The notes beneath the pieces were generated by a model. That model was not told the DNA's origin and ran no database searches. It saw only the letters and a list, made by a program, of their open reading frames with translations. A DNA stretch of 33,470 nucleotides. Source: Saccoglossus kowalevskii (Eukaryota > Hemichordata > Enteropneusta > Harrimaniidae). Shown in pieces: positions 10,501-33,470 of the stretch. The stretch lies in contig NW_003136845.1 of the NCBI RefSeq assembly GCF_000003605.2, forward strand, positions 12,827 to 46,296, read 5' to 3'. Numbering within the stretch: position 1 is the first letter of the stretch; every line of letters begins with the position of its first letter. The position numbers and the translations under genes were made by a program.

Positions 10501-10746
10501 TTTTCTTACTTCAACAAAATAGGTGTGAATCGGAAATCGTCAATTACTAGTACAATTAGTTGTGTTGTGTCGGACGCACCTGGCAACTACTAGTATGTTT
10601 CAGCTACAAGCACTTATTATTATTGAGTCTGAGCTGTCTACACCCATGTCATTGGATCATCGCCTGCAGTTACATTACAAAACAAACTCATAAAAATGAA
10701 ATATTGTTATTATAACTTGTCCGTACCACAGTCCATACTAACTTAC
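7558..10746. other. Intergenic, no supported gene; possible downstream region of the TSP1 gene
   Basis: About 3.2 kb downstream of the first TSP1 exon on the minus strand. A terminal exon of that gene is expected somewhere here because its first exon ends in a GTAAGT donor, but no convincing acceptor-plus-stop exon could be identified by eye. Open frames at 7529-7891, 8810-9094 and 9289-9648 show no recognisable domain. Confidence 0.45.
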
Positions 10747-11086
10747 GTTTATCGCAACACGTATCCCACCATTCATCTACACAGCTACACGATGACGTCA
10801 GTGGAGAACCATGTCCGTTACAACCTGGGTTATTACAGCCTTGGGATTCACTCATATGGTAGGGACACGATCCGCCACAACTCTGACCAACAGTTACGTA
10901 ACGTGTTCTTGTCTGTGTACCGGACGTGCCACACGGTGCCGAACATGCACCCCAGGAACTCCATCCACTAACTTGACAGTTTGAGGGACCACAGGCACGT
11001 CGCCTTCTACGTCGTCGCCAACTCTCAGTGTTGTCAAAAGATGCGAGTATCACGAAACAAGTCAGCAGTATTAAGTCCAGCTTCAT
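10747..11086 (-). CDS. Small secreted poly-Arg/TSP1/EGF-like protein, copy A (first coding exon)
   Basis: The exon encodes 113 codons plus one base. A hydrophobic signal peptide covers residues 1-22, followed by Trp23 and seven arginines (24-30), then a TSP1 domain at about 32-89 with WSSW at 42-45 and cysteines 48, 52, 70, 74, 84 and 89. A short EGF-like tail holds cysteines 100, 102, 110 and 111. The mature part has 12 cysteines. The start is the ATG directly ahead of the signal peptide; the paralogue at 20314 shares the TTAAGTATGAAGCTG context. I end the exon at a consensus GTAAGT (10741-10746). Reading through would add about 19 unrelated residues to a stop at 10688, and the paralogue at 19970 diverges right after GTAAGT, so this is an intron donor, phase 1. 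The terminal exon was not located. TSP1 domains act in extracellular matrix binding and signalling; this protein's own role is unknown. It is most likely secreted. Confidence 0.85.
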
Positions 11087-11236
11087 ACTTAATATATTTT
11101 GGCGTCACGTAGGTCGATTGTAGGTTCACTCCCTTTCACGGATGTTAAATTGAGGGTACGTCTCTAACGACATCCTGTGATCATTCCAGGTCGCACTTAC
11201 TCAAACCTCCATGCTCAAACGAAACATGAGATCTCA

Positions 11237-11244: not shown

Positions 11245-11777
11245 CTTCGTGTACGAGGTAAAGGGCGCATGCGTGCACTGACACAAATACAGCCAATGGT
11301 GTCGCTCCGATAACACACATTTATTTATTTATTCAAACAGAAAGCATGTGGACACTTTTACCACAACAGCTGAATAGACGTCATTGCCTAAAATACAGTC
11401 AACAGACGAGTTGACAACTGACACACGGAAATCAAACTGGCCCTCTTCTTGACCATGCTTAGGGCCTGGTCGTTAATGATTAGGGCGGAATTGGTGACCA
11501 AAATTGTATGACAGTTCCACACTACAGGAATAACAAATCCCTGACCATGCACAGTCCCTCATTTGCACGTCAAACACGGCGCAGTGAGCAATCTATCTGG
11601 CGCTTCAAAACAGCTTTAAACACGCAAACAGAAATCGCTTTCATTAGCAGCGAGAAATGCAATAATAACGGTGTTCGAGAAACGAGTACATGTATTATGC
11701 CAATCGAGCTCCAAATCGGATGGGAATGAAATTGGCACTCTGCCAAAAACAACATCATCAACAGTATTGTAAGGTAA

Positions 11778-12224
11778 GGGACGACGTCAAAAGATCGATG
11801 TCGGATAAAAAAAAACTTATTTCCTTTAGTTTGGGGGTGGGGGGTTTTGACCTCAAAAAGTTTCCATCCTACAAAAACGATTTTATTTTTTAATGAAGTC
11901 AAACAAATCTTGGAGTATTTGTAGTTCTATCCAATCATGGACAGAAATAACCGAAAAGGGGAAAAAAACAACAGAAAATTGGTTTGGTTCGAGTGTAAAT
12001 CTGTGCGTCAAGTGAGGTGCATCTGTAAACTCTTTTTACACCCATCCGACAACCAACTGCTATGCAATACTACTGTCCGATTATCAATTTGTATTTAATG
12101 GTGAATGTAGTCTGACGCCATGGTCAATATTTATCAATTAAGATTCAGTGGGGGTAGGGGGGTTTGGAAAAAAAAATAATGGAATTAAGTTTTTTATCCG
12201 ACATCGATCTTTTGACGTCGTCCC
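11778..12224. mobile_element. PIF/Harbinger-like MITE with TAA target-site duplication
   Basis: Terminal inverted repeats of about 35 bp start GGGACGACGTCAAAAGATCG and run on through ATGTCGGATAAAAAA. They are identical at both ends. TAA lies immediately outside both ends (11775-11777 and 12225-12227). The 447-bp interior has no coding capacity for a transposase. A 3-bp T-A-A duplication is characteristic of PIF/Harbinger elements, so this is probably a non-autonomous derivative. The paralogous position near 445-455 lacks the element, so it inserted after the segmental duplication. Confidence 0.75.
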
Positions 12225-13037
12225 TAAGTAACAAAGGCTCGAGGCGTTCACTGCGCTGCGTTCATTCCCACACCCCCATTTCAGAATTCGAAAACAGTAC
12301 TGAGTTCGTGGAATTGGGGATTTGCGTCTTCGTGGAATAAAGTACAGTGCAACAAATAGATTTATTTGGGGTAGACGACTACGGGTTTTTCCCTACTACC
12401 AAATAAGTATGCGTGTATATTGTAATGATGGTTAACTGGTATCTGTTCGTCGTATTATACGTCATACGCTGAAATTACACACTATATTGCTCAGAAAAAC
12501 TGATCGTGTGTTTTAGTTCGAATTATTCAAATAAAACCTTCAGGCAAAAGTATCGAGTTTTAGATCACGTCACGGTTTGGTAAGTTATCGACACGGTCGA
12601 CCTTATCCTTGTCCATTGGGTCATGGAGGCATATACCTCCATGATTGGATTCACAGGCATTTTATTAAATGTGCGTTACTCTACGATAACACTTGTACGC
12701 CATTTCGCAATGCGACTCACTGTGAATGCTGTGCTATCGGCGGTCAGTGCCTTTTATCAACTTTGGATTCGTTTGAGGATGTAAATATTGACATAGTGTC
12801 TCACAATAAACGTAAAATAAACCCTTGAACCGTCAACTGTATGAGAGGTCATACACCTGGCCCTGATACGCCAGTTTGACACATTATTACTGTATGCTCA
12901 TATGATAAACGTATATAATAGATAACTTTAAAAACACACGCTACACAGGGTTTGGCTTTGCGACCTTCATTAATAACCGATATCAGATTGTTTGACGACA
13001 ATAGGTGTATAAGACAAAAAATACAGCGAGCAATTCA

Positions 13038-13835
13038 GATTAAAAATTAAATAAAAAAATAGTATATTAGTCTTATTCTTGACTCACTGTTATCATAACT
13101 CTGTACTATGGTATTGGTGATATATGAATCGGGTGCCATAGAATGGTACTTGATGGCCAACCAACCTAATCAAATATGTATTTTGCATTGTTCGAGTGCA
13201 AAAATAAGTTATTAGATAATTAGGTTATTAGTACTGTTTTATACGCATGCGCATGGGCCGACCCTGTCAAATCTCGTCATCTGTTTTCGGGTGTGTCTGG
13301 TCGATGTGAAATTGCTTCAGCCATTGGATAACCGAATTAACTGGTGTATGTGTGAAACAACCATGATAAATAAATGGCGGGACTTTGGTGTTGCACATTT
13401 AGGACAGAAATAAAAGACACGCCCACAGTTGGACAACCAATCATTTTATTATTGGTCACGATGTACCACAGATCATCCCCACGCCTTTGAAAACACAACA
13501 TACACAATGGTGGGATGAGCGGCTTCCTTTGTACACAATTTCCAATTCTGCGTCAGATCATAGGTAACTATCACGTATTTATTTGGCCGTTATTTGACAA
13601 ACGTAAAATACCATAATGTTAAGTCGCGGAAATTTAAACCTACTGATACTGATGAAGAATTAAAATTTGCCAAAAAATACTAAATTTGCTATCTCATGGA
13701 AATAAATGAAATCAACATATTTGACAGTATATTAAGTTTTGCGTCGCATGCACACGATTGAAATATCATATAAAATGGGCCTAATATACTAATGTTGTAT
13801 TTATTCAATTGTACGATGTACCACGGATCAATTCA
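13038..13835. mobile_element. ~800-bp insertion in right duplication copy, flanked by CAATTCA
   Basis: The left copy runs continuously from GCGAGAAATTCA to TCATATTAGATTC (near 1292-1316). The right copy is split there, with about 800 bp between two copies of CAATTCA (13031-13037 and 13829-13835). A 7-bp flanking repeat suggests an inserted element with a target-site duplication. No terminal inverted repeats, poly-A tail or coding region are visible, so its class is unknown. A short phrase, GATGTACCAC followed by A or G and GATCA, occurs twice inside or at its edge (about 13461 and 13815). Confidence 0.45.
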
Positions 13836-14797
13836 TCATATTAGATTCATTACTATGATGGGGCACAGTCACTCTATTATTAAAAATTGACATGCTTTAT
13901 ACCTCTAGCAAAGTTTCTAAATAAAGCTAAACAGAAATCAAGTATATGAAAATCATCACCTCCACAATTAGCCTGACAAGTTGGCGTAGGTGGCGCCCTG
14001 GACTGCTGCGATCCCCACCAACGCCTGACAGAATAGTGTAGTTTTCTCTTATCTCCGACAACTTTTTGTCGGCACCAATCAGATTTCAGAAACTGTTGAT
14101 TTTGACATCCGTCATAATTTAACCATTCACGAAGCGTTGCGATTGTTGAGACAACAACTTATCACTTCTGATCGTCTTCCTGCCCATTGTTTACCATTGG
14201 TCGGGGTCGCAGCGGCTCGAACTGAACGCGTTTAGTGTACGGTAACTTGTACTAACTCGGAGCGGCTCGGACCAGTTGGATCCGATTAAATGCTGCTGTG
14301 TATACGGGGTGAACGACCGTCACCCACAGTTCAGCTACGCCGATTTATAGTAGTTATAGAGACCATAAATAAATACATTGACCTTGCCTATGGTATTTAT
14401 TGCCAAACTAATCACGTGACTTCTATTCAGTGAGTACACGCTGTTTTACGATACTCTAACAATCAGGTAATATAAACATTATTATGCATATGACTGCTCA
14501 TGCGCAACTAACCATTTAGTTTTTCGCAAAGGGCCTAAACTCGGTTCTAGTATCTTGTTACTGCACTACTGTGACTTAGCCTCGGCTACTCGATGGACGC
14601 CAGGTGAGCCTCTTGCAGTGTCCCCAGAGTATCACAGATACTGCTGAGATCATTATAACAAACGGGAACGGCAGCCACCATATATACGCGTAAATGGGGT
14701 GGGAATTTACTCTACAATGAACCATGCGCTGTAGACCAATTGCCAAACAAACCAAAGTTAAACGGAATAACTACAAAAACAGTCCCACATGTAGCAA

Positions 14798-15030
14798 CAA
14801 ATAAGTCAATTAAACCATATCTAAACGGAATAACCAAAGAACTAATTAAATCTATCAGCAAGGGTACAAAGCTTGGTAATAGATAAGTCTTCATTATTTA
14901 GGTTGAAATGTTAGAAGTCAGCTGGGTTGTCAAGTTAACGCGAGTTGATTTCACCATGCAGTGATAAGATAATATATATACTATTTTAGTCAATGTCTTA
15001 CACAACGCCAGTACATAATTTGCTCAGGTC
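14798..15030. other. Intergenic spacer between two duplications
   Basis: Short AT-rich spacer between the end of the 11320-14797 duplication and the start of the 15031-16222 duplication. Nothing recognised. Confidence 0.5.
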
Positions 15031-16222
15031 TAGTGTCTACGTGACCCAATTCAAGAACGATTGAATCCGGAAACAAAAACAAACATAATTTACGAGGAAA
15101 AAACGCTCGTTATCAGCTCAATAGTAACTATTAAACAAGTACTATGCTATCAACTTCACTCATACCAGACTGGGTTATTGTGCACGGCTCTCCATCTATT
15201 ACGCCATCAAACGTCATAAGCTACCAGTTAAGTTATAATCTACAAACAGCTTGCAATTGCCAATGAAGACACGATAATTGGATTGCATTTTTTGTTTCAT
15301 CGGTCATTAACAATAAACGCTCGAGATATATATTTATTTGTTTTATTATCTCAAACTCGCGCTGCGTGACGTCTGTGGCAATTCTTGGGTACATTAATTA
15401 ATGAGTGTATGCATGCAAGCGGGTGGGTAATAAATAATTCTCAATTGAAAATAACAATAATGAAGAAATGGTTAAGTATTGAAATGAGTGTGTTTAATGG
15501 AGGAACATAAAACCCATCTAAACCCGAACTGTATAGATGAAATAGCATTGAAAAAAGTGAATGGTCTAATTCACCGTGCATAATACGTTATTAAAAGATT
15601 TAAACTTTGCAATTCCGATCCATGTTACGTCGCAGTGTGGTATGCCTCATTGCGCTAGACTGAGAAGGCGTCTGTTCGAAGGAGGAACGAGACGTCATTT
15701 AAGTATTAGTAACGTCTTACATGGACTGGGGGCATGTCCTCCTTCACAAACTTATTGTATTACCCCTTTTGTTTATCATTGAGACATTCTTCATATCAGA
15801 CCCAGCTGTCGAAAAATGCTAAAATGCATTATGTTACCCTTTACGGTGCAGGAACTTAAGCGGGAAGTGAGAAGTTACCTGTCTCGAGTAAGCGGGAAGC
15901 TAGTAATTTGAAAATTGAGTTAAACTATGTAATTATATAAGCCCCTGTTGACTATTTGTCATATTCACATCGCAACGATAAATAATAACTTACGATATTC
16001 ACAGCATGTACCGTGCCACTCATCCTCACAACTACAACTCGATGTTAGAGGGATACCGTGGCCTTGACATCCGGGGTTGTTACATGATTGAGATCTGGTA
16101 AGTGGATCCGTACACGAACCGCCACAGCTAGCAGAAGTTGTCACAGCTCGGGTACTTGTTTGAGTTCCAGTCGCCCCACACTGAACAGAACAGGCTACCC
16201 ATGAAGACCAATCACTGAGAAC
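15031..16222. repeat. Tandem segmental duplication, copy 1 (partner 17475-18537)
   Basis: The segment aligns to 17475-18537 from the shared CTACGTGACC phrase through the shared TSP1 exon. Copy 2 lacks about 130 bp that copy 1 has near 15480-15615. At the TSP1 end, identity stops abruptly after the bases GAGAACAC inside the exon, so copy 1 contains only the 3' portion of the gene. The period is about 2.4 kb. The open frame at 15576-15782 is not preserved in copy 2. Confidence 0.8.
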
Positions 16223-16250
16223 ACCATGATAATATGGTGCAAAATGTTCT
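15994..16250 (-). pseudogene. 5'-truncated TSP1/EGF-like copy B (orphan exon or pseudogene)
   Basis: The minus strand encodes an intact TSP1 domain and EGF-like Cys tail almost identical to copy C. It runs from the V-L-S-D-W-S-S-W start to the same phase-1 GTAAGT donor (15988-15993). The signal peptide, poly-Arg run and the first two cysteines are missing; homology to copy C stops at about 16222. Upstream the frame stays open for about 40 further codons without an in-frame ATG and contains a different stretch (C-R-E-H-F-A-P-Y-Y-H-G). A possible acceptor (TATTGCAG) lies at 16251-16252 but would give a phase-2 entry. It may be a dead partial duplicate, or an exon captured by an unseen upstream first exon. 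No stop codon or frameshift interrupts the domain itself. Confidence 0.65.
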
Positions 16251-17474
16251 CTGCAATATTGAAAGTTCTGTGTGTGTGACCTCTGTCTAGGCGTTAAGTT
16301 GACAGATAAATTTGATTTATGAGTAATATAGACTATTTATTGACATGACGTAATGTTATTAAAACCGCTGATTCATTGTAATATAAGTAAATCCGAAGTC
16401 CTTTTCCAAAGTGGTTGGACCAATTCTATCGAATAGCATATTTGATTCTATATTTGTCAGTGATCGATGATTCGTACTGTCATTTGTTTCGTTAAAATGT
16501 CACACACAAGTCGATCAGGGTGGTGATATGCCTATTAAATGGATGGAGCACAAGGAAAACCAGTCAGGGGTAGAATGACTCACTAGAACTCGAGAACCAC
16601 CGTATTAACAAACAAATAATTTAATATTATATCCGCGTATTAAATATTAATCTACATGTTAATGGACATTATTGTCTATCATCTCGTCATTTATCGATTT
16701 CTGTCGCCCTCAATCAATCAGCAGAATTGTACAGAGGAATCCAGTTACCGGTGATACTCACATGTTCTCCTAGTTCGCGTACAATGGTTTCATTGAATCA
16801 AAACATTTATTTCCGCGTTACAACAACAAGAATTCACTGACGCAGACTAGCTTGTTAGAAGCCGTTCATGCATTTGGTTTGTTATCGCGTGAAATCAAAT
16901 ACGACCTCCAAGATGCAAGCTTAATAGTAGACTTACCGGTTTGTGGGTAGAGGGATGAACGAATACGAAACCGTGTGAGCGGATGACAAATTATAATTTG
17001 GACATTTACTTATAGCAACGTTGCCCCCAAACTAGTATACATCACAGGAATAAAGCTTTCCCATTAATCTAGTGACGAAGGAAATGGGTTTAAGGGTTCC
17101 TCAGAACGTCGATAATATTTTATTAATAGTCATTTATCAATAAATATTACATTTTTGTGATACACAGTCGGGGGGGGGCATTGCAATCACGCACACACGT
17201 CTTTCAGATGCCACAGAAGCAACCCAATACTAGAGGGCGCAATTTATCAGAATCGTGCAGTGATTTCCTGAAGGTAGAAGAAAATGTTGAGATTATAGGG
17301 GAGAGGGTGGTTAGCCTTCTAGAACTGTGAAACGCATTTCGCCTTGAGAAGAGTATTTTTAAGGTTCATCACTCGTTGGCAGCACCTTGGCGATCGTAGT
17401 GCATAATAATTAATGCCGTTGGGGCAGCATAACAAACAAGAACAGCTACAGCCTGGAAATCGAGACTACCATAT
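16251..17474. other. Intergenic, no supported gene
   Basis: Includes a 9-G run at about 17170-17178. It also lies downstream of copy C on the minus strand, so it could hold a 3' exon of that gene, but none was identified. Confidence 0.45.
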
Positions 17475-18537
17475 CCAGTGCCTACGTGACCTAATTTCTA
17501 GAACGAGTGAACCCGGAAACAAGAACAAACATAATTTACGCGGGAATAAACGTTCCTTATCGAGTAAATAGATCACCACTAAACAAGTACTATGCTATCA
17601 ACTTCACTCATACCAGACTGGGTTATTGTGGAAGGCTCTCCGTCTATTACGCCATCAAACGTCAGAAGCTACCAGTTAAGTTATAATCTACAAACAGCTT
17701 GCAATTGCCAATGAAGACACGATAATTTGATTATTATAACTATTATTTCATCGATCATTAACAATAACGCGCGTGATATATATTTATTTGTTTTATAATT
17801 TCAAACTCGCGCGGTGTGACGTCTGATGCAACTCTTGGGTACATTAATAAATGAGTGTATGCATGCAAGAAGGTGGTTAATACATTATTCTCACTTGAAA
17901 ATAACAGTAATGAAGAATGATTAACGATCCGTGTTATGTCGCAGTATTGTATGCCTCATTGCGCTACACTGAGAAGGCGTCAGTTCGAAGGAGGAACTAA
18001 ACGTTATTTTAGTACATTGTATTAGTAACGTCTTACATGGACTGGGGGCATTTCCTCCTCCACAAACTTATTGTATTTCTCATTTTGTTTATCATTGAGA
18101 CATTCTTAATATCAGCCTCAGCTGTGTTTCTACATTGCAAAACCGTTACCTTTCTACGCTGCCGGTAATTAAGCGGGAAGTGAGAAGTTATCTGTCTCGA
18201 GTAAGCGGAAAGCCTGTAATTTGAAAATTCGGTTAAACTATGTAATTATACAAGTCCCTGTTGACTACTTGTATATTAACATCGCAACGATATATAATAA
18301 CTTACGATATTCACAGCATGTACCGTGCCACTCATCCTCACAACTACAACTCGATGTTAGAGGGATACCGTGGCCGTGGCATCCGGGGTTGTTACATGAT
18401 TGGGATCTAGTAAGTGGATCCGTACACGAACCACCACAGCTAGCAGAAGTTGTCACAGTTCGGGTACTTGTTTGAGTTCCAGTCGTCCCACACTGAACAG
18501 AGCAGGCTTCCCATGAAGACCAATCACTGAGAACACA
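17475..18537. repeat. Tandem segmental duplication, copy 2 (partner 15031-16222)
   Basis: This is the counterpart of 15031-16222, including the intron and downstream flank of TSP1 copy C. Both copies contain the same stretches around the CTCGAGTAAGCGG motif, the GACTGGGGGCAT motif and the AATTGCCAATGAAGACACGA motif. Small indels show that it is not a recent duplication. Confidence 0.8.
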
Positions 18538-18660
18538 ATTCGTTGGGCTGCAAGATGGCGAACGACGACGACGACGGCGCCGGCTGTCCCAGAACGTGCT
18601 AATACTGTCGATTAGTAATACAATTATTAGCAGCACAGTTATAAAACGTTTGAACTGCAT
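18306..18660 (-). CDS. Small secreted poly-Arg/TSP1/EGF-like protein, copy C (first coding exon)
   Basis: The exon gives 118 codons plus one base. A strongly hydrophobic signal peptide covers residues 1-22, followed by a W-D-S linker and seven arginines (27-33). The TSP1 domain covers about 37-94, with WSSW at 47-50 and cysteines 53, 57, 75, 79, 89 and 94, preceded by C37 and C42. The EGF-like tail has C105, C107, C115 and C116. The cysteine number (12) and spacing match copy A, although the sequences have diverged considerably. The donor GTAAGT is at 18300-18305, phase 1. A possible terminal exon lies only 92 bp away (18188-18213): an AATTACAG acceptor followed by eight codons and TAA. Copy B does not preserve that frame, so this is weak. 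If unspliced, translation would continue about 13 residues to a stop at 18265. Probably a secreted extracellular protein; its function is not known. Confidence 0.85.
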
Positions 18661-19969
18661 GGTGAATCAAACGTGCAATGTGATGCAGTTGATACTCATG
18701 GTACCTGTGACGCCCTCATTGGATGGATCGAGGCACGGCATTGAGATAAACAATATTGTGTTACTAGGAAAGTAAACGATATTGTTCTCGCACGATCCAA
18801 TCAGAGAGTATAAGGAAGTACTTTTCCACTAACTATTAATAGCACATTTTTTGATTATTATCCTATATGAATATGGCCACCCATTTGTTGACAGGTTGAA
18901 CCCGGAAATAGTCTGCAAATATTCGAGATAGTAATGAGCTAAGCCGATCTGAGATAAGCGCGTATTTGTGTATTATAAAGGCCAACAATTTCACCAATTT
19001 CGGCTACTCTGATTAATGCGACTGTTCACAATTCGTTGATAGAATGGCATACGCGATTTGCAAATGGCATAGTCACATACGAGCAGCTTCTCTCAAATGC
19101 CGCGGATACTGTCGATGTGGATGTATTTTCAGAATGCGATTCCCATGTCACATCCTACCTCGCACTATGTTATTCGTCACTAGTATTAGTATTTCGAGAA
19201 TAATCATAACAGTGCTAGGCGTTCGGGACGTGGGGGAATACTAGTAAATATTGAAAAGCGCTTAGAAATAGCTAATGTTGCTTAGCGGAAGGTTCCATCA
19301 AATAATTGGCAAATAGTAAATAAATAAAGGGCCCGGTACGCGAACGGTATTTCCACCGAAAAAGTGACGCTGTGATTTTTCCTGCCATTAATGGTCGGTG
19401 GTCGTCACGCAACGTCCTGTTCGATATGGGACTCAAAGCTTAAAACGTATACAACGCGTGAAAATACATTGTTTATTTACATGAAATTCGAACACGCGCT
19501 GCGCGACCACCAACGCCACTGTGAATGGAAATATTAAATAATTAGTACAGATACCCGAACTATCTTTTAACTTTCAAATACATGTAGCTATCCACAACTA
19601 CCTAATTACTCTGTTAAAAAGTGTCGGTCACGCCCGCCTTGAAATTTGAAAAAAAACAATTGACATCCGTCATCATACCACTGTTCTGTCGGTTGATACA
19701 TGTTGGTACACTTGACTGAATCCGTATTTTTTCAATATGTTTCTAATGGACTCGAAGCTAACAAAACAATCACAGGCTTTGAAAGCTGTAGAATCAATTC
19801 GGCACGCTGCCTATATGTCACACCGGTGTTGGTAACAGACAGGAGAATATAACTCGAAACTGAATACAATTCTCGACTGAATTTGATATTGATGTTCAGC
19901 CACATCCCCAGTGAGTTACTTCTATTGAATATTTGCTGAATAATACAAATTAACATCAGTAAGACTTAC
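18661..19969. other. Intergenic between TSP1 copies C and D
   Basis: Contains the upstream flank of copy C and the expected intron and 3' region of copy D. No terminal exon for copy D was recognised. The open frames at 19044-19244 and 19732-19956 have no supporting features. Confidence 0.45.
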
Positions 19970-20314
19970 GTTTATCGCAACATGTATCCCACCATTCATC
20001 TACACAGCTACACGATGACGTGAGTGGAGAACCATGGTCATTACAACCTGGGTTATTACAGTCTTGGAATTCACTCATATGATACGAGCACGACCCACCA
20101 CAACTTTGACCAACAGTTTTGTGACGCGTTCTTTCCTGTGTACCGGACGTGCCGCAAGGTGCAGAACATGCACCCCAGACACTCCATCCCTAACTTGACA
20201 GTTTGAGGGGCTACAAGAACGGCGGCGTCTTCTCCGTCCCCACCAAGCGGCAGTGTTGTCCAAGTTTACGGATATGATCAGGACAAGTGTTAACAGTATT
20301 AAACTCAGCTTCAT
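19970..20314 (-). pseudogene. Poly-Arg/TSP1/EGF-like copy D with a single-base frameshift
   Basis: This is the closest relative of copy A. The start context and signal peptide are similar, followed by W-W-G, six arginines (residues 27-32), and C-S-P-S-N-C-Q-V. At about 20189-20190 one base is missing relative to copy A, shifting the frame at residue 42 and leading to a stop at 20075-20077. Beyond the indel, the original frame remains free of stop codons and keeps all TSP1 and EGF-like cysteines up to the same phase-1 donor GTAAGT (19964-19969). The break is therefore either very recent, a polymorphism, or a sequence error. An ATG ten codons further upstream (20344) is in frame, but homology to copy A starts at 20314. 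Confidence 0.75.
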
Positions 20315-21060
20315 ACTTAATGTGCACAGAGATTTTCCCGACACGCAAATTACAATTTAACTTGTATTGCAGTCTCGCTGTACAGAATATACATATGTCG
20401 TTAATAAGCGCACAAGGCCAAGTACACCGAGAACACAAAATAACATCTAAATTAATATCTTCAAGTCACGCCCCAGCAAAGACAATTTTACAGGTCTGTG
20501 CATGCGCGTTGAAACAAGCTTGATTCGGTACTCTTGCACCAATCAATGAACGCCCTGAGCCTGCACCTCATCAGTACAGCTGGTCCCACGCATGCGCCAG
20601 TACGTGAAGCGTCAAAATACTACCACCCCTTCAAAAACACACACAATAGAGTACAATGAGGACCAACGTAAAACCAAATATATTTATGTTAATGGAGACA
20701 TGAACAAACACTAAGTTGCAATCAATGAATATCGTCATACCCGGCGTGACGGACAAGAACCATATAATTGTATAAATGAAGCCAAGCCTGTACACTATGT
20801 TATAGAATCGTAAACAGTCTGGAAATTCCAGATTTAATATAAACATGCCTATATGAAATCAGTTGTATGACCTGTAGGTTCATTTCTAATGCTATTTCAC
20901 TTTGTACATAACATTAGTGTTGCATAGGGGCCTATCCTAAAACCTATTCTAATTGTGGTTATTCAAGCTGCTTTAGATCATAGACTATTTGTAGTTGGGG
21001 ATACGAACACAATGGTTTGTGTACGGTAACCTGGGTGCGGTGCTGAACCGTATATTGCAG
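20315..21060. other. Intergenic, no supported gene
   Basis: Upstream flank of copy D. No clear TATA motif was seen. Short open frames on both strands (for example 20631-20846) show no recognisable domain. Confidence 0.45.
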
Positions 21061-21340
21061 AGATTTTCAATAGACTGCTTTTGTAAAAGAAATCACTGTA
21101 AGGCACCACCTGGTCGTTATATTTCACCTACAATGTTTAACACAACACAAGGTTGAACCAGGAAATGACCTTTGCTAACCTGTCGATCTGTCCGAATGTC
21201 AGCAATTTGCTGAGTATAGTACTTTTAGTTGTGAGTGACTATCCTTCTTGTGGACCAAAATCGTGACTGAAGGCCGGTTTACACGATAATATATAGTAGA
21301 TCAGATACGTCTGATACGACAAGTCCGACTTTGTAATCGC
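21061..21340. repeat. Repeat downstream of family-2 gene 1 (partner 24337-24796)
   Basis: Shares with 24337-24796 the ordered blocks TTTTCAATAGACTG, ATCA(C/T)TGTAAGGC, GCTGAGTATAGT, TTGTGGACC, GAAGGCCG and CTGATACGA. Each copy lies downstream (minus-strand sense) of a family-2 gene, so it may be part of the same tandem duplication, or it may be a dispersed repeat. This copy lacks the SINE. Confidence 0.6.
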
Positions 21341-21925: not shown

Positions 21926-22807
21926 TCAGTACATCCTACCGTTACATTGGTATGAGTCGCAATATCCTTCACAATCTTCCTGATAGTAACTATAGTAGTA
22001 TTCTGTATAGTACTGCTGCTGGTATTTATAAGCCGTTCTGTATGGTGCAATAAAATCCATAAACAAGTTACATCATCCAAAACCACGTAACCAAAATCGC
22101 CTATTATTTACATTAATCCAAACTCACCGGTTTTAATTATGGCGTTTTGTGTTGCTATTCACTAGGCACGCATTCACAAATACAACAATACTGACAGTTG
22201 TTGTTGTCACTCCAATTCGTATGTTCTTATGATTATATATATTTATCTTTCGTTTCCGAAATTGTGTCTGCCATTTTGATGTGGATGACTTAAAGCCTGG
22301 CCAGAGTACATTATGAAATGATTTCATTTTAACCTACTCAATTGTCGATATTAGCAGACGTTGCCCATTTCATATTTCTTTAAACTTTAAACTGTTAAAA
22401 GGACAAATTGAAAAGCGGACATTTGTGGATAAAACGTACCTGTATCGCGTGCAGCTATCCCAGAAATTCCAAAATCCACAGCCCGTCGAATACCGACTTG
22501 CGTAAGAAACATATATCGATCTAGACAACTGCCGACTCAAGGTACTGCGGAAAGTACAACTGTTTGGCCTATAAAATAGAAGTTAGATAGAGTTATGCAT
22601 GAAATGTATCAATATATCTTCATTGCACTGATACTGAATGCAGTAAATTTATCAATCGGTGTGCTAGATTATATTGGTTAATGTGTACGACTGTCATGTA
22701 TACGTTTGTATTTATATAACAAGTGTACAGGGAACTCACCATGCACATGTCTTCTCCGTACTGCAATACAGGAAAAGAATGAAAACAAAAACTTCCGCAC
22801 AAGTCAT
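21926..22807 (-). CDS. Secreted six-Cys EMI-like, Tyr-rich small protein, gene 1 (3 exons)
   Basis: I reconstructed three exons: 22740-22807, 22440-22568 and 21926-22037. Introns are phase 2, with donors GTGAGT and GTACGT and acceptors TTTTATAG and CCATACAG. Together they encode 102 residues. Residues 1-22 are a signal peptide. Exon 2 (about 23-65) carries C27, C53 and C62 with S-R-Q-L-S-R-S-I and C-G-F-W motifs. Exon 3 (66-102) starts R-T-A-Y, holds 12 tyrosines in 36 codons and C88, C92 and C97, and ends with TGA. The support is the paralogue at 26473-28410, which conserves all three exons, both splice phases and all six mature cysteines. The spacing, with a Tyr/Arg-rich Y-R-T-x-Y segment between the third and fourth cysteines, resembles EMI domains of MEGF/emilin-type proteins, but without the following EGF repeats; this is inference. 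A GTAGGA after the last cysteine could be a weak extra donor. Extracellular; role unknown. Confidence 0.75.
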
Positions 22808-22829
22808 TTTGATTTTCAATTGCGATACT

Positions 22830-22845
22830 GCCCTGTTAGTCATAA
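22830..22845 (-). promoter_or_regulatory. Conserved 16-nt block upstream of family-2 gene 1
   Basis: Minus strand TTATGACTAACAGGGC, 22 bp before the ATG. It matches 15 of 16 bases upstream of gene 2 (28427-28442), while the sequence between it and the ATG differs. It is a candidate core-promoter or 5' UTR element. The partly TATA-like TTATGA makes a promoter role possible but unproven. Confidence 0.35.
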
Positions 22846-24336
22846 CGGTACACCTGTTACTTTCACTTCCCCCAGCACAGTCCTCCTCCGAACAATGAAG
22901 TCACAATTAATTCAGAGTAAAGCATGACACATACTTTCCCTATAACCAGGCTACATCAACAAGCTGCAAGATCCGCCCACACTTTGAATATTACCACAAC
23001 TTAGAATATCATTGTTTAAATGGTATCAGGCGTTATCGATTTTTTTAATAAGGTCAGCATCGTATAAATCGACGACGCATTGTATATATCCCTCTAGTGC
23101 AGCTCTGTTCATCGAATTTGAGTGTCTGAATAGTAGGTGCATTCATGAATACATTTCCCATAATGTGCCTACTGGCAAGTACTTAGTGTAACCATAGATA
23201 CATAAACACTGTAAACGTGGGTGTACTGCCATTGGTTGTTGATATACATCACATATGCACCATGTTTGATGGTAAGCTTTTTGTTGATCATCAAAAACAC
23301 GTGATATTAGGTTTGGGATAATGACGTCATATCGGATAGTACCACACAGATCGTCTGTTCTATTTGCTTTCCCCTGTCCTTCCTCGATGAACGTCATATA
23401 TCACACGTAATCCCACCCGAATAGTATCATAAACAAACTATCAAATAAATAAATAATGCTGTAGAATATGTGGACTGAGGTTAATAATGCTATGTTAACA
23501 CACCAACCACAATAGGTCTCTTTATGTGTGCATAACCCGGGTGTAATGAGAAATAACACTATATTAAGCATAACAGGTCACTGAACTAGCTATTAAATGG
23601 GTTCTTGCTGCGGAGAAACGCGAATTTAAGACAACAACGAAACGTGCTGCTCTAGTATACACTAGTATAGTTAAACACAAACTTTATAGATTTACAACGT
23701 GTCAGTATAACCACTGAAATGGAATAGATTTGCGGCATATATTCATTCTATACCCTCGTTAGACGATCGTTAAGGTTTATACAGGAGAAGAAACGGTCAT
23801 GCGCAGAACTTCAAAGGGGATTCCCCAGTCAACATCAAATATCATGCTACCCTCTGAAGCAAATGGGATCACTCGTGTTTAGCAAGATTCACTCATAGAA
23901 CGCTCTGTATTTGAGATGTTGAGCATCGGTGTCGCAAAATAGGCGATAACATTTTCTAGCAGGGATCGGCGTCGAATTGAGGGTAACTATTTCTTTCGAC
24001 TGTTAATAGTTTGAAAGTGTGCTAGCGGGAGTTTATCGAGTTGACATTTTTAGCAAGACTTAGTCGAAGATGGGTGTACGAGCCTCGCACGTATTTGACT
24101 TGCCTCTTTTATAGGGCGTATTACAAACTGCATGTACTACACTTAATACTCGTTACTGTTTTAGTCGGACTTACGAAATTGCGTCTAAATACGTCTAGTT
24201 CGTAATAGAATGCTTTGTTTCTGTTTATTTAGAATGATCCAGTGTTTTCATTATTTTTTATCAGTGCATTTTGGTTATGGATTCGGGGTCCTATACAGTT
24301 TTCCATACTACCTACGGATTTCCGTATGATGGGGGC
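22846..24336. other. Intergenic, no supported gene
   Basis: About 1.5 kb between family-2 gene 1 and the downstream repeat of gene 2. An open frame at 23143-23397 on the minus strand has no recognisable features. Confidence 0.45.
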
Positions 24337-24796
24337 ATTTTCAATAGACTGTTGCTACAAAAAAAAAATCATTGTAAGGCGACATTGAATCATGTTTTCT
24401 ACAGTTTTCAACAAGATTGAACTATGAAATGATTTTTACAAATACGCCCAAATACAAATACGCCCGGTCACTGGTAGTCTAGTGGTTGTCGCATCAGACT
24501 CATAGACAGTAGACCCAAGTTCAAATCCTACCTTAGGCTGAACATCAAAAGGGTCGACATGCACTATGTGTCAGCACTAACACTTGCAATTTGCAATTAC
24601 AAAAAAAGTCAGGAGAGACAACAGTGGTATTCAATGTCACCTGGCACAAATAATACGCCCGAATGTGGGTTATAATAGAAATTGTCAATTCGCTGAGTAT
24701 AGTGGTGTTTGTTCATATTGTGGACCGAAGGCCGTTTAACATATTCATTATATCAAACATTCCTGATACGATAAATCTGAATGTGCACTATAATGG
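24337..24796. repeat. Repeat downstream of family-2 gene 2 (partner 21061-21340), interrupted by a SINE
   Basis: Collinear with 21061-21340 on both sides of the SINE at 24467-24653. The left part holds the TTTTCAATAGACTG and ATCATTGTAAGGC blocks. The right part holds GCTGAGTATAGT, TTGTGGACC and CTGATACGA. Confidence 0.6.
24467..24653 (+). mobile_element. tRNA-derived SINE with 8-bp target-site duplication
   Basis: The 5' region contains a Pol III A box (TAGTCTAGTGG) and, about 40 bp on, a B-box-like AGTTCAAATCC (one mismatch to consensus). An anticodon-arm-like stretch between them pairs poorly, so this is a tRNA-derived SINE head rather than a working tRNA gene. A tRNA-unrelated body of about 110 bp follows. 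TACGCCCG occurs directly before (24459-24466) and after (24654-24661) the element, consistent with a target-site duplication. The paralogous repeat at 21061-21340 lacks it. Confidence 0.75.
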
Positions 24797-26472
24797 CTGA
24801 CTAGTTATTTGAAAAGCAATAGAATGACATGAAACAGACGTACGTAAACCATGGCGTCATATTTGTCAGATCAAGCACACCCTTACCCTATGTCCAATTT
24901 GTGTGATTAAACTATGAAATTATATATACAGGGGTTACGGACTCGACTAGTTCTGATGAACTATATCTGTAATCCCCACCCAAAAAAAAGAAAAGTTATC
25001 TAAGCAGAATTCGTTATTTATTAAATTATTTATTTATTTATATGTATTTACTACCTGTGCAACTTCTACCTTTACCGTTGTTTTTTTTGTTTTTTGTTTT
25101 TTTGGTGAAATAAATTTAATTCAAATTTCATTCATGTTATAGCGAATCGGACAGTTTAATCAGACTAATATGGTCTGGTAAACTAGATTAAAACTATAGT
25201 TATGTTCGCTATATCACGTGATTCGGCAGACATTCACAAGGCATAGGAATAGTAACCAAAAAAAGAGACGGTCATCAGTGCACATCAGACATTCTTTTAG
25301 ATATTTAGTTGACGCCTAATAAACACATAGTACCTGAACTACATGAAGTCGATTTTGTGACATATTTATGGAAATAAGCTGCAGTTAGTGTCACAAGTAT
25401 TTGCTACGCCACAGTCTGTATAACATGAACGCACGTAAAAAAACGTTCATTTAACATACAGTTAGTTGCTTCGCCCTTTCAACTTCTTGCAACATAGCTT
25501 CGGGAGAGTTTGACCAATATAAAGAGCTTTTGCTACATGTCCGAGAGAAAATGGAGAAATTACGCGGACAAGCGATTTTAATTGCTTTTTATGGCGTTGC
25601 TTTATTTAGATTGTAAGAACAATATATATTTTGAATGTATACCATTATAATGCTCTTGAATACATGCAGGGTAATTTGGATCGACAAACATCCACCGAGA
25701 CAGAAGACGAGCAGTTCCTCCACTCTACCATGTATGGCGCACTTCACAGGTACATGGAATTGCAAATGCAACTGTGAGATACAGGTTTCAAACTGGCGTA
25801 CATAATGATGTAAACATTTTACCTTAACTATTTTGTTTTCAAAATCTTTTTATTCATTTCAAACATACCAGTTTTGAACTTAGATTTAACTTAGCTCATG
25901 ATTGTACACTGGTTAAAAAGTGACCTAATTTGAAAACGGCGGAATCTAATTTGAAAACGGTAGAATCTCTTAAGTCATTTCAAAATTCATTAATATACGA
26001 ATATATTCAAACAATGTCCTATCAAGCTCACTGACATTTAATGTACAGAAGTTGATAAATCTAGTAAAATCAAGTAAATTGTACAACTATCTAGTATCTG
26101 AAAAAGCTAATCACAGTAATGAACATATGGTACAGGAAGTATAATTTTCATATGCAAGTAAAACAAGTGATCGACAATTAAAATTATCTAATTTGGGTTT
26201 TTGCGTTGTGATCAGTAGAGGTCAAATCATCATATATTTGTTCGATTTAAATTGCAAATTGAGTAACTGTGTGTGATCATAGGTTAGTCAATATATCGTT
26301 GTCTCCGTACTCTCATTCAGTATAAGCATTGGATTCTCGATTTAGTTTCCAAGATTTAAATAAATACAAGCTCAATAAATATGAAGACCAAGGAACAAAA
26401 CAAAAAAATGAACAAAAAAGACAGAACATAAGAAATGCAACCCTACCAGTCTCATTGTATACAACAAGTAAA
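24797..26472. other. Intergenic with low-complexity T/A tracts
   Basis: Contains TTTA-rich sequence at about 25015-25050, a T/G homopolymer-rich tract at 25079-25106, and a 21-bp direct repeat at 25925-25966. The polyadenylation site of gene 2 should lie near 26300-26470, but no AATAAA hexamer was recognised. No coding feature is supported. Confidence 0.45.
25925..25966. repeat. Two tandem copies of a 21-bp unit
   Basis: CTAATTTGAAAACGG followed by CGGAAT or TAGAAT is repeated twice, head to tail, with two differences. Confidence 0.75.
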
Positions 26473-28410
26473 TCAGTATATCCTACCGTTACATTGGTAT
26501 GAGTAACAATATCCTTCACAATCTTCCTGATAGTAACTATAGTAGTATTCTGTATAGTACTGATGTTCATATCTATACGACGTTCTGTGGGGTGCAATAA
26601 CATGCATACACGTGTATCACACAATACAATACGGGTAAAATGTTTGAAATAATCGACAAGCCTACGCTTAGATATTTTCGTTAGTAATAAATACCTAAAA
26701 TTTCACCCCGCCATCAGCGATAAATTAACAAACATTTGCAAACAAAAAACAAATTATAAGAGTGGATGATGAATAAATGTTGGAATAAAAAAGTCCCAGA
26801 CGATCTAGTTGCTAAGCTACTGTACAATGTGGATGATAATGTATAAACATGGGTAGTCATACATTCCGGAAATGCATATGCTTTATTATACCCAGATTCA
26901 GTAATTATTGAGGAAATATATATTTCCTATATGAAACTTTAATTTCCACGGAAATGGCAAATTTATTTATTGCATTGAACGAAAATTACCAATATCCGAT
27001 TCGCTAACAAAAAATGATGGCACCTAAGCTTCTTACCAAAGTTTTGAATAAGTCTTTGAATGTGCATTCAGTACCACTGGTTTTCAAATGTGAGATTGAT
27101 TAATTTTTTTGTGTGTGTGGACTATTATACACTTTCGTGGTAGCATTAGTCGAAAATGTTCTACAAAGATTTTTTTTAAACAGACGAATTACACTGGAAA
27201 ATTATTTCCTGGATTATTTTCTCAAAACGATCTTTTCCCAATTGCCCCAAACACACCCTTTTCTTTGATTATTAGAAATATACAACTTCGAATGCAATAC
27301 GTGTATTTACATTGTACGTGTTGCACAGTTATTCTGCCAATATTCTATTTATGTTAAAATGGCTCAACATTTTGTAGCACTGGGTAGCAGTGCGGTTGCT
27401 GAAACTCCCTTTTCGTATTTATGTCACAAAGTATATCATCAATATCATGTGTTTCATAATCCTCTCTAAGTAAAATGAATGCCTTCAGTTTGATCATGTT
27501 TCACTGGTAACTAGGGAATTCCGGTCAAATTTGGATTTTAACATGGACCCCCCCCCCTATCTTGAAAATACATGAAAGGGTATGGATTATTTGATGATTA
27601 TTATTACCACTTCAATTTAATGAGTTTTTGTAACGCATAAATATATCTGAAAAATAATCGTATTAATGAATATTGAGAATTTCTGATATTGTCAGTAAAT
27701 TGAGTTTTTTGGTATACATGCTCACTTGCGTAGCCGGAAAGAATAACACATATACATATAATTGCTAACTGAGTCACATGCATCGACACTGGCCCATTAA
27801 TTTAGATCCGTGTAATGTCATACTCTAGATGGGGTCGCGAATCTAGTTTCTGGTTAGTGCCGGATGTGTATGTTTTGAGTATGGGTCCAAAGAGCTTCAG
27901 TGACGGTTATTACCAAAGTAGCAAAAGTGTGTGATAATACTAGATTTATATTAATCTTCCAAAATCATTACCTGTATATAGTGCAGCTATCGAAACCCCA
28001 AAATCCACAGTCTGTCCAATACCTAGTTACGTAAGAAACACTTATCGATCTAGACATCTGCCTACTGAAGGTATTTTGAAAAGTACAATTGTTTGGCCTA
28101 TAAGAAAAGCGGAATACAGACATTGACGTGCATTGATACAGTGCAGTAAAGTATATCAATCCGTTGACAAGTTACTATTATTTTCTGTTACTTTTGTTAC
28201 AAAAGCAACGTCGAATGTAGAGAACGTCGACTCGCTTGGCTGATGACGCTTACACGTAGATATACCGGTACGTGATGTCATTATTGTAACACTTTGTACA
28301 CAACTTGAACGTTAACCGTTATCAAATATGAGCCAAACTTACCATGCATATGTCTTGTCCGTGCCGCAATACAGAAAAAGGACAAAAACAAAAACGTATG
28401 TCGAATTCAT
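26473..28410 (-). CDS. Secreted six-Cys EMI-like, Tyr-rich small protein, gene 2 (3 exons)
   Basis: Exons 28343-28410, 27972-28097 and 26473-26584 encode 101 residues. Donors are GTAAGT and GTAATG; acceptors are TTCTTATAG and CCCCACAG; both introns are phase 2 as in gene 1. Intron 2 is larger (about 1.39 kb against 0.40 kb). The signal peptide is residues 1-22. C27, C53, C61, C87, C91 and C96 correspond to the six mature cysteines of gene 1. N26-C-T is a possible N-glycosylation sequon that gene 1 lacks. Exon 2 differs from gene 1 at roughly one base in five and is one codon shorter, while the last 90 coding bases of exon 3 differ at only three positions. Exon 3 has 13 tyrosines in 36 codons with neighbouring acidic residues. 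The EMI-like assignment is tentative. A single minus-strand open frame at 27968-28159 covers exon 2 but starts inside intron 1 and is not the real protein. Confidence 0.75.
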
Positions 28411-29267: not shown

Positions 29268-29327
<60 letters not shown>

Positions 29328-29346
29328 GTTTAATTCGTTTAAAAGA
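29249..29346. repeat. 98-bp hairpin: (TA)27 flanked by 22-bp inverted arms
   Basis: The arm at 29249-29270 (TCTTTTAAACAAATTAAACA plus GA) is inverted at 29325-29346 with one mismatch. Between them lie 27 TA dinucleotides, themselves self-complementary. The right arm is also the start of the 0.6-kb repeat unit at 29325 that recurs at 30355, where neither the TA tract nor the left arm is present. Confidence 0.85.
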
Positions 29347-29935
29347 TTCCTCTCATTAGTAAATAGCGCCCTAACTCAACAATAATTAGAATGAGTGGTT
29401 AATCAAAAGTTTGATGAGTCAGGTGCATCTATTGGCTAAGCTTATTGTACATAGATGCAAATGAATATAGGAACCAATTATGCTGTAGGGTGTATTGGGA
29501 GGGGTGGAGGATTCCATGTTTGTAATGACTGGTTGTAATGTGCTATCTCCTTGTTTTCAGGATGCGGCCTGATATGTTTTGCTTTCTTGTTTGTTCAATT
29601 ATGGCTAAAATTTGTGTGGTGGATGTAAGATGTGTTTGTTGAGCCATTGTTTAGACACCCTGCAGCTTGAAATGGTATGGTTCAAATCAAAATTCGATAT
29701 GGCGGTGTCGTCTAAAAACATGACATCAAAATCTGTTCTGTTTATTTATTTACTGTTGTAGATCCTGCGAACTAGCCATTGAATATGATGCCGGGAATAA
29801 ATGGTATTCTGAACAAGCTTTATTAAGCATTGCTAGCAATATTCCAATATGAATTGGGAGCAAACTGCGACACCAAATCTAGTCGCTGTATTGTTATGTT
29901 TCTAAAATATTTTTTTCAAATGTCTTGAATCAGGA
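29325..29935. repeat. 0.6-kb tandem repeat unit I (partner 30355-30972)
   Basis: About 90% similar by eye to 30355-30972, sharing TTCCTCTCATTAGTAAATAG, GGGAGGGGTGGAGGATT, CACCCTGCAGCT and CAAACTG(C/T)GACACCAAATC. The short open frame of unit II is interrupted here (TGA after TGTGTTTGT near 29640), so neither unit appears coding. Confidence 0.8.
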
Positions 29936-29936
29936 T

Positions 29937-30352
29937 GAATTAATTTTAATATTTTATTTTAATTTCAACACTGGATGTGATTCACTGCCTGAGAAATCAT
30001 ATATCATAGAAATTCAACTGCACCTAGACTACAAGCACTATGAGTACAAGTTATAAGTCCTGTCCCAATATGTTTTCAGGTAAGTGCACTGTTTTGCGCT
30101 ATTAATCTCAGCCATCACTCGATGTTCACTGCTTGTAATGTTGTAATGAATTTATTTTAATATTTTATTTTAATTTCAACACTAAATGTGATTTACTGCA
30201 TGAGAAATCATATATCGCAGACATTCAACTGCGCCTAGACTACAAGCACTATGGGTACAAGTTATAAGTCCTGTCCCAATATGTGTTCAGGTAAGTGAAC
30301 TGTATACCTTCATTGATAAAAGCATCACTTGTTGTTCACTGCTTGTAATAGT
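29937..30352. repeat. Two tandem ~210-bp repeats nested between the 0.6-kb units
   Basis: Copies at 29937-30147 and 30148-30352 share TTTTAATATTTTATTTTAAT, GACTACAAGCACTATG, AAGTTATAAGTCCTGTCCCA and GTTCACTGCTTGTAAT. Each contains TTCAGGTAAGTG, which resembles a splice-acceptor/donor junction, but no exon context is evident. Confidence 0.8.
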
Positions 30353-30354
30353 AG

Positions 30355-30972
30355 ATCTGTTCAATTCTTTTAAAAAATTCCTCTCATTAGTAAATAGCGC
30401 CCTCGTTCAACAATAGTTAGAATGAGTGGTTGGTCAAAAGTGTGATGAGTCATGTGCATCTATTGGCTAAGCTTGTTGTACATAGAGCAAATGAGTATAG
30501 GAACCATTAATGCTGTAGGGTGTACTGGGAGGGGTGGAGGATTTCATGTTTGTAATGACTGGTTGTAATGCGGTATCTCGTTGTTTTCAAGATGCAGTCT
30601 GATATTTGTTGCTTTCTTGGTTGTTCAATTATTGCTAGAATTTGTGTGGTGGGTGGAAGATATGTTTATTGTTTGTTGAGCCATTGTTTAGACACCCTGC
30701 AGCTAGAAATGGTATGGTCCACATCAAAATTCGATATGGCGGTGTCATCTAAAAGTATGGCATCAAAATGATTTCTGTTTATTTATTTACTGTTGTTGAT
30801 CCTGAGAACTAGCCACTGAATATGATGTCGGGAATAAATGGTATTCTGAACAAGATTTATTAATTATTCCTGGCAATATTCCAATAAGAATTGGAAGCAA
30901 ACTGTGACACCAAATCTAGTCGTTGTATTGTTATGCTTCTAAAGTTTATTGTTTCAAATGTCTTGAAACAGA
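30355..30972. repeat. 0.6-kb tandem repeat unit II (partner 29325-29935)
   Basis: The period to unit I is about 1.03 kb, including the nested 210-bp repeats. It contains a 67-codon open frame (30568-30771) that unit I does not preserve. Confidence 0.8.
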
Positions 30973-33470
30973 TTCAAATATAAGGATATGGATTGTAAAA
31001 TATTAAGATGAAATGGTGTCCAAAAAATAATTTGTATATGATAAATTTATTTTAAAGAATTCAGTGAAAATATTATGAAATAAAATAAATTAAATAGAAA
31101 TATTATGTGTATTTTTGTATGTGGAAACTTGGCTGGCCCACTCAAAAATAGATGTGAGGTCTGCAGTTTTTTTATTTGTGAAAAAACTGGTATTTTACAG
31201 ACTACAAACAATGCAAGTGCACAGTGCAAGGCTAGTTCACCAACATGCCTATTCTCCTGCTTGAGTGTGAAAGTACATGGCTTAGTGATTACCTCTTATT
31301 TTTTTAAATATTAGAATTTCTTTTATTTAGGAAGATTCTTCTATAAACATAGAATAGTTATATATATATATATAACTAGGTCTGTGTTTCTCTTCAGTAA
31401 TGGTAGTTTGAGATGTGATAATATACTGATTATTTAGTCACTATTCACGAAATCGTAAACATGACTGGTTTGTTTGGCGCTCACACTCCACTGTGTCATA
31501 CCTTTATCAGATTGACCTAGTTCGGTTCCCTGCCCCACTGTCAGCGGTTATTGTCTTTACCGCCCCCAGCGTTGAAATTGAGGCAGGGGCCCAGCCTAAG
31601 ATTGCCCAAGACATTATCCGCTATCGGAGGGCGCACTAATGAATAATGCTTGGCTTATAGTTGGTGGCGCAAAACATTTTAGATTGAATGAAGTATTATT
31701 GAATTTGATGACATATAGGTGATTTCAGAAATAATAATAAAATTGTCGAACATACGTGTAAACAGGAAATAGCACATTTGTGTGCGGGTCTGTGTGTAGT
31801 CCAAAGCAAGATAATGAAATGAATGTGGGGAGCAATAACTCAGTGGAACACAGAGAACGAAATGAACATATCACACACGATTAGTCATCATGTTTTGGGA
31901 TAAGGAAAAAATTATGCTGCACATATAAAAAGAGACAATACGCAAATACACGTACAAATAAATCAATATCGATATCGATATCAGTGAAATCTACAGGCAT
32001 ATCAATCCATGTAAGCATGGCAACAAGATAAATATATTTTACAATAATATGATAATTATTACTATTTCCGACCTTGGCTTATGCGTTTCAGCACATACTG
32101 ATTGTTGATGCCGACTTTTGAATTTTTCGTATTTTATTTCGTTACGTCATAAGGTACTGCAACGCCAAAATGACTCTCACAGATTTAGTTCTATTATTTC
32201 AGTGTCATTTGAAAATGTTACTCTATGCTATTACAATCAAGCAAATGTATCCGTAAACCGGGAGCACGTCAAGGTCACTTGACTGTCGGTTCAAACAGAG
32301 GTAATTAATAGCGCAAACATGTTCTGTTGTATTGTAATATATAAGGCTGTACATAACAAGTGTTTGGTGAAAATCATACACTATGCTCATACAGACCAGC
32401 ATACATAAACGATTGACACGTGTATTCAAACGGAATAATTGGAAAAATGTGTAAGTGACAGTGGCTGAATAGAGCAGTCAAATACTGCAAACAGTGCATT
32501 ACGCTAATGTCGAATTGTTGTTAAAATGTTGTTTTACGCGCAAGCAAAGGTAATGAGCTGATAATTATACACACAAGGATAACCTCGTTACGCCTTATAT
32601 ATGTCTGCTTCAGGTTTGACATCAGTTCTATTGTTTAAACAAACACTTAACGTCAAGACGATCGAGTGCTAATGTCCTGAACTGCAGTTGTTATTTTAGA
32701 CTCTTACAATTTCTTACAATACACATCCAAACACGATATGCAAATGAACATTAGAAAATCCTAAAATGTTTAATTATGAAAATTGTACCAGCTTATAAAA
32801 AAAACAATCCAGAAGTCGTATCAAGTTAAGCGTTATACAAGTACATGGGGATGGGAAAACATTCATATAATTGTTTAAAACATCACTGCAATGTATACGT
32901 TACCCGAGTACTGTGTGTCAGTGAATACTGATTATGGAATAAAAAACGCAGAGAAAATATAAATTAACATTCGTGAAGAACTGGCGTAGAGGTATCACGG
33001 TGAGTGATAAGCTCCAATGGCTCTAATTGCACCCAGGCCGAAAAAAAGAGTGTTCCTGTTAATACTATAAGTTGCTACCAGTTCACATATTTACATACGC
33101 TAAAATTCACTAGCATTATTCTTTCAGAACACACATTAGTTTATCATGAATACGAACCTAAAACAAAATATGCAAATGTCGATAAAGATGTGGACAAGTA
33201 TTAAATTAGCAATCAAAGACATTGTTAGGACCTGTTCGACGGCAGAGGGTTGTATCATTGTTTGATGGGACCAAGCACAGCTATCTTTATATCTTCAATA
33301 AAATCAAGGTGGAAATCGCCGATATAATGTATGAAACCATATGTCTGCCTTTATAAAATCAATTGTTGGTACATGTGCCTTCTTAACACTATTTCGCATA
33401 GTACAATACATAAGTGCTGTTTGACGACTCATGATACAATATAATATAATAATTACTAATAACAAAGTGC
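30973..33470. other. Intergenic, no supported gene
   Basis: AT-rich. A GC-richer block at about 31480-31640 has abrupt composition change and may be an old repeat, but it could not be classified. Short open frames (31047-31229, 31105-31314, 32223-32429, 33004-33204) have no recognisable features. Confidence 0.45.
31355..31378. repeat. 24-bp perfect palindrome around (TA)n
   Basis: TAGTTATATATA is followed immediately by its exact reverse complement. Confidence 0.8.

Follow-up and report, generated by a model that had tools for sequence, protein, structure and literature searches.

Two tandem split genes of Saccoglossus kowalevskii as probable members of a secreted protein family with a divergent EMI domain

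The stretch of Saccoglossus kowalevskii DNA analysed here, which we call the window, comprises 33,470 nucleotides (C2863:12827-46296; C-numbers denote contigs of the 572-Mb, 4830-contig host genome) and carries two split genes, A and B, in tandem. We read A and B as members of a small, old family under purifying selection, whose secreted proteins each have a divergent EMI domain and whose genes continue into a 3′ exon that escaped recognition; to this reading we assign a probability of about 0.6.

Exon structure of genes A and B

It had been predicted that this DNA conceals two genes of three exons each, and comparison of A with B bears this out. By blastn the two share three aligned blocks in the same order on the minus strand, corresponding to exon 1 (85% identity over 60 nt, E 1e-14), exon 2 (83% over 138 nt, E 2e-36) and exon 3 (86% over 160 nt, E 4e-51), while the introns, like everything else outside these blocks, gave no alignment between A and B at E ≤ 0.01. 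In both genes exons 1 and 2 end at GT donors, exons 2 and 3 begin at AG acceptors, and the junctions are in phases 2 and 2. When exon 3 is read to the TGA, the joined frames encode 102 amino acids in A and 101 in B; the two proteins are 74% identical, and each has six cysteines after the signal exon, a hydrophobic, signal-like exon (judged from its sequence) that stands immediately ahead of the domain. The paralogy, the signal exon, the six conserved mature cysteines and the predicted coordinates and lengths were all reproduced, the last two with TATAG/GCC as the acceptor of exon 2 (a slash marks the exon boundary throughout). A second candidate acceptor, CAG/TTG, fits A and is lost in B, where CAA is found; it was rejected, TATAG/GCC being suited to both genes. 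A and B are real spliced genes, and their parts are as follows.

22740..22807, minus strand: A exon 1, start codon and predicted signal peptide, ending in phase 2 at CATG/GTGAGT; kept in B and in the copies on C2440 and C1615
22440..22568, minus strand: A exon 2, first half of the EMI-type domain (C1, C3, C4); acceptor TATAG/GCC, donor CAG/GTACG, phase 2
21940..22037, minus strand: A exon 3, second half of the EMI-type domain (C6, a new cysteine, C7); 98 nt to the phase-1 donor ACG/GTAGGA
21926..21939, minus strand: A tail, RMY and stop, non-conserved and abutting the putative donor; start of an intron (favoured) or C-terminus (earlier model)
28343..28410, minus strand: B exon 1, start codon and predicted signal peptide; donor CATG/GTAAGT
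27972..28097, minus strand: B exon 2; acceptor TATAG/GCC, donor CAG/GTAATG, phase 2
26487..26584, minus strand: B exon 3; 98 nt to the phase-1 donor ACG/GTAGGA
26473..26486, minus strand: B tail, RIY and stop, non-conserved, behind the putative donor

A family under purifying selection

The ratio of non-synonymous to synonymous substitution (dN/dS) between A and B is 0.39 (bootstrap range 0.22-0.76, with 99.65% of resamples below 1), and the exons therefore evolve as coding sequence. Two genes proved too few: besides A and B themselves, a protein search of the host genome with A returned further copies, 19 of its 20 matches at E ≤ 10 falling in eight loci, and with one of the divergent copies, H352, as the query these eight loci accounted for 15 of 16 matches. 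Exons 2 and 3 are open at seven loci of the family and an eighth is decayed; together they lie on five contigs.

C2863: A, B and D49
C2440: E256 and F279 (E and F)
C1615: G
C352: H352
C1966: I, the decayed locus, with exon 3 decayed or missing

A weak match at C1615:54019-54120 (E 0.216), covering query residues 7-41, about half of which belong to the signal exon, was left unassigned and is perhaps a further copy; a match at C2507:277242 (E 2.89, H352 as query) was left outside the family. In copy G (C1615:77680-77860), ACG stands in place of the ATG that starts the signal exon in its relatives.

Among A, B, E, F and G, dN/dS is 0.22-0.69 for each of the ten pairs. Identity of D49 and H352 to the other copies, and between the two, is only 38-47%, and synonymous sites are saturated; despite this divergence both retain the six cysteines and an exon 3 of 98 nt. 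On the strength of the low ratios in the ten pairs, and of this degree of divergence at saturated synonymous sites, the family is both old and under selection. Its tree leaves the branching unresolved, with none of the five inner branches settled. Upstream of A, the block 23177-23371 matches, at 82% identity, a stretch some 5.8 kb downstream of F279, and is a possible conserved promoter of the family genes.

Gene structure and kinship with the EMI domain

The original prediction also likened the two proteins to the EMI domain (PF07546). This domain occurs in proteins of the extracellular matrix and is that of the EMILIN/multimerin proteins. Of four EMI loci listed by a genome-wide search, those on C662 and C3770 were used for a comparison of gene structure, and C2:520051 and C4462:225029 were left out. 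Against a curated cut-off of 25 bits, PF07546 matches both EMI exons of C662:144394-148919 (144394-144519 and 148801-148919, at 31.1 and 26.5 bits) and one of the two at C3770:535.1-536.9 kb, which lie at 535.1 and 536.8 kb and of which the second exon scores 34.1 bits and the first 18.6, below the cut-off.

Three exon boundaries can be laid side by side. The first is a phase-2 acceptor, placed 3 codons before C1 in C662, 4 in C3770 and 3 in the family (7 in D49). The second is a phase-2 junction within an Arg codon, 4 residues past C4 in C662 and in all seven family copies and 5 past it in C3770. The third is a phase-1 donor, 2 codons past C7 in both EMI genes and 1 codon past it in the family. 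Every one of the seven copies therefore has the phases 2, 2 and 1 of the EMI genes, at positions that agree within 1-2 codons (3-4 for the first boundary of D49); the C1 of C3770 was misplaced in the MAFFT alignment, and the intron positions of that gene were read by hand. The cysteines agree as well: EMI cysteines C1, C3, C4, C6 and C7 are aligned in 7/7 copies, most copies share the stretch C4-x-x-Y-R, and the tyrosine- and arginine-rich middle and the motif C-x-G-[YW] are common to both. As in EMI proteins, the domain is N-terminal and lies behind a predicted signal peptide, and A and B each show the single N-terminal domain of a secreted-type protein. In a multiple alignment in which C3770 is partly misaligned, D49 is 34% identical to C662 and 19% to C3770.

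Profile and database searches weigh against such a kinship, as do the two EMI cysteines that the family lacks. With the limit as loose as E 10, PF07546 still matched neither A nor B, and among the seven copies D49 alone was matched, at 10.4 bits and E 1.2, below the cut-off (the alignment spans profile positions 2-67, with 10.8 and 10.4 bits in two runs). The sole Pfam match of H352 is to the unrelated NHase_beta_N (E 0.039, below the cut-off of that profile), B weakly matches Zap1_zf2 (E 1.3), and none of the six exon matches of the genome-wide EMI search belongs to the family. Comparison of the family with the C662 EMI domain by hhalign reached E 0.0028 over 41 columns with a probability of only 10.9, and comparison with a two-sequence EMI alignment reached E 0.017 with a probability of 2.7. 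All seven copies lack C2 and C5 and have instead a new cysteine past the GY motif, and so depart from the seven-cysteine framework seen in C662; the CC pair retained by C662 and C3770 is missing from the family.

These same departures could indicate that the family is a set of small secreted proteins rich in tyrosine and cysteine which came to resemble the EMI domain by convergence, without descent from it. Relatives outside the genome are in keeping with that idea in so far as no convincing one emerged from the PDB, where one search for relatives of the family gave a single unrelated match at E 0.62 and a second gave none, although the C662 EMI domain likewise finds no EMI chain there. NCBIfam returned no match to the family, and a pattern search for relatives in GTDB contigs gave 50 matches, none of which was confirmed. 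Convergence would nonetheless have to account for three boundaries that agree in phase and position with those of EMI genes in this genome, together with five cysteines and two motifs that coincide, and we consider it quite improbable. On these grounds common descent with the EMI domain is more likely, and gene structure is better evidence of it than the profile. The resemblance that was predicted is upheld by the intron positions and phases of two EMI genes and by five cysteines, and not by any profile match over the cut-off. A new family had also been suggested; a divergent EMI subfamily, below the profile cut-off and with six cysteines rather than seven, fits better, and it is there that we would place the seven copies. 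We noticed no report of a stand-alone EMI family in searches of the open-licence literature.

Where the genes end

The genes were predicted to end with exon 3 and to encode stand-alone proteins of about 100 residues. The conserved piece of exon 3 is exactly 98 nt long in 7/7 copies and runs into a phase-1 donor, G/GTARG. Scored with general donor-site frequencies and ranked among the 4345 GT sites on both strands of the window, this donor lies in the top 0.3% in the divergent D49 and H352; in the five close copies it ranks within the top 1.5%. The residues encoded beyond it (RMY, RIY, RTY, RIQIDL, RILINL, RCVT and KF, each followed by a stop) are unconserved, and the tails are shifted between copies by a 2-nt indel. 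A protein that stands alone and ends near residue 100 is accordingly not established, because a conserved phase-1 donor closes exon 3 and the stop behind it is probably intronic. If a phase-1 intron begins here, as it does in both EMI genes, the TGA of A and that of B would fall inside intron 3.

The earlier model remains in contention in the following form: exon 3 is terminal, the TGA ends translation, the mature product is a stand-alone EMI-like protein of about 80 residues, and GTAGG is fortuitous or disused in the five close copies. An in-frame stop does follow within 10 codons of the donor in all seven copies, and the close ones have the weaker donor. Conservation between A and B continues about 32 nt past the exon-3 boundary, further than beyond the other donors, and AATAAA lies 53 nt past the TGA of A and, in D49, at 171 nt, as would suit a terminal exon; in B, F and G neither AATAAA nor ATTAAA is present within 400 nt. 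Downstream regions of the seven copies were compared in translation and as DNA, with runs of N over most of that of H352 (20,899 of 25,201 bases) and parts of those of D49, E, F and G, and no further coding exon was recognised among the best 90 of 230 translated matches. The comparison brought out TSP1 exons behind A and E256, which belong to neighbouring genes, patches of similarity at the DNA level and an element of about 140 nt. The conservation past the boundary, the polyadenylation signals and the missing exon all count against an onward intron. A terminal exon 3 leaves unexplained, on the other hand, why strong donors stand at the same nucleotide in the divergent D49 and H352, why the exon measures 98 nt in every copy while the tails drift, and why both EMI genes have a phase-1 donor close by. 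We regard it as rather unlikely, and favour continuation into intron 3.

How far the genes might then extend is a separate matter. Exons 1-3 could be the 5′ portion of a longer gene with several domains, in which the EMI domain is joined to EGF or other modules encoded by distant 3′ exons. Extracellular modules are usually added at phase-1 junctions, and exon 3 ends at a putative one. EMI domains are N-terminal in their proteins according to PMC11949838. The space for such a gene is small, with just 1.6 kb from A to the start of the next TSP1 gene on the same strand and 3.7 kb from B to A, and, TSP1 exons aside, the best 90 of 230 matches held no shared downstream block, within the limits set by the N gaps. 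Unlike EMILIN and multimerin, the family shows no recognisable collagen, C1q, FAS1 or EGF module, N gaps lying behind several copies. One gene fusing the EMI exons to TSP1 exons was considered and rejected, since the intact TSP1 genes t10 and t18 (listed below) open with an ATG and a signal-peptide-like stretch of their own. A larger multidomain gene seems improbable, and we retain the reading of small genes with at least one further 3′ exon, which would probably be short.

The 140-nt element lies on the strand of the gene downstream of five of the eight loci (A, D49, E256, F279 and G); B and I (on C1966) showed no copy of it, and H352 borders an N gap. Its two positions in the window are these.

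20642..20778, minus strand: element of about 140 nt downstream of A exon 3
33132..33268, minus strand: the same element downstream of D49 (C2863:49.6-49.9 kb, just beyond the window, with an N gap between)

A genome-wide DNA search with the copy of A listed that copy and C2440:258074, the E256 copy, alone; it missed three known copies, which shows its limited sensitivity. Even so, the element is not repeated abundantly in near-identical form. In 4/5 copies it contains a YAG able to open a short terminal exon, that of A being without AG, and the tails read from these putative acceptors (DLTMLIRC, DAYLLLS, GSDDVH and GPNNVFDC, each to a stop) are unconserved. As a candidate terminal exon, 3′ untranslated region or regulatory element it is a speculative proposal.

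Proposed protein and its function

Exon 1 would supply the signal peptide and direct the protein into the secretory pathway. Exons 2 and 3 are taken to encode one divergent EMI domain, with phases 2 and 2 at its start and middle and a phase-1 donor after it. The domain, of about 75 residues, would fold around three disulfides with rewired partners, C2 and C5 having been lost and one cysteine gained. EMI domains have three disulfides and form a single N-terminal module of their proteins, as described in PMC11949838, where the EMI domain of MMRN1 is also reported to carry O-fucose on T216, the threonine at C1+5. Ser or Thr occupies C1+5 in 6/7 copies (Ala in H352), by alignment a putative O-fucosylation position.

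Outside the cell, such a protein may serve for association or adhesion as a component of matrix or mucus, and we infer a secreted, disulfide-bonded module of that kind. Tyrosine makes up 14-20% of the domain, a content that would suit a structural protein of matrix or mucus. The mussel foot proteins are small adhesive proteins rich in tyrosine and cysteine. Like them the family is small, predicted to be secreted and tyrosine-rich; it differs in its ordered cysteine framework, which it has in common with the EMI domain.

More tentatively, and at somewhat less than even odds, the family may represent tandemly amplified, free-standing secreted EMI domains with rewired disulfides, in which the domain is nearly the whole mature protein. 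If so, it would provide a minimal system in which the EMI domain can be tested by itself, as against its usual place as an N-terminal module. The lost and gained cysteines would put EMI disulfide pairing to a natural test, and the comparison as a whole suggests that the curated profile may miss EMI domains that intron positions expose.

Neighbouring genes and other features of the window

The window also holds genes with a TSP1 domain, and similar genes accompany the family elsewhere.

10691-11104, minus strand: intact single-domain TSP1 gene with a phase-1 GTAAG end (t10)
18265-18666, minus strand: intact single-domain TSP1 gene with a phase-1 GTAAG end (t18)
15965-16336, minus strand: TSP1 exon copy with altered 5′ end
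19964-20321, minus strand: TSP1 gene copy with its frame broken within the TSP1 domain
C2863:11265-11648, beyond the window, on the same strand as A and B: TSP1 gene (t11)
C2440:259.1 kb, behind E256 and oriented as that EMI gene: TSP1 gene

Intact TSP1 genes encode a signal-peptide-like stretch, a run of arginines, one TSP1 domain and a cysteine-rich tail, in which two copies have sub-threshold EGF matches; t10, t11 and t18 have a phase-1 GTAAG site at their end. The copy at 15965-16336 is 94% identical over 85 aa to its neighbour at 18.3 kb, without the start that holds the signal peptide and arginine run, and the copy at 19964-20321 may be a pseudogene or result from an assembly error. The window thus belongs to a duplicated cluster of genes for small domains predicted to be secreted. 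Positions 24470-24660, in a stretch resembling 21050-21330, hold what we take by eye to be a SINE-like, tRNA-derived insertion with motifs like the A and B boxes, at which ARAGORN and Rfam found nothing. Direct segmental duplications of 79-92% identity pair 1-2427 with 11320-14797, 15029-16227 with 17474-18539, and 29321-29933 with 30352-30971.

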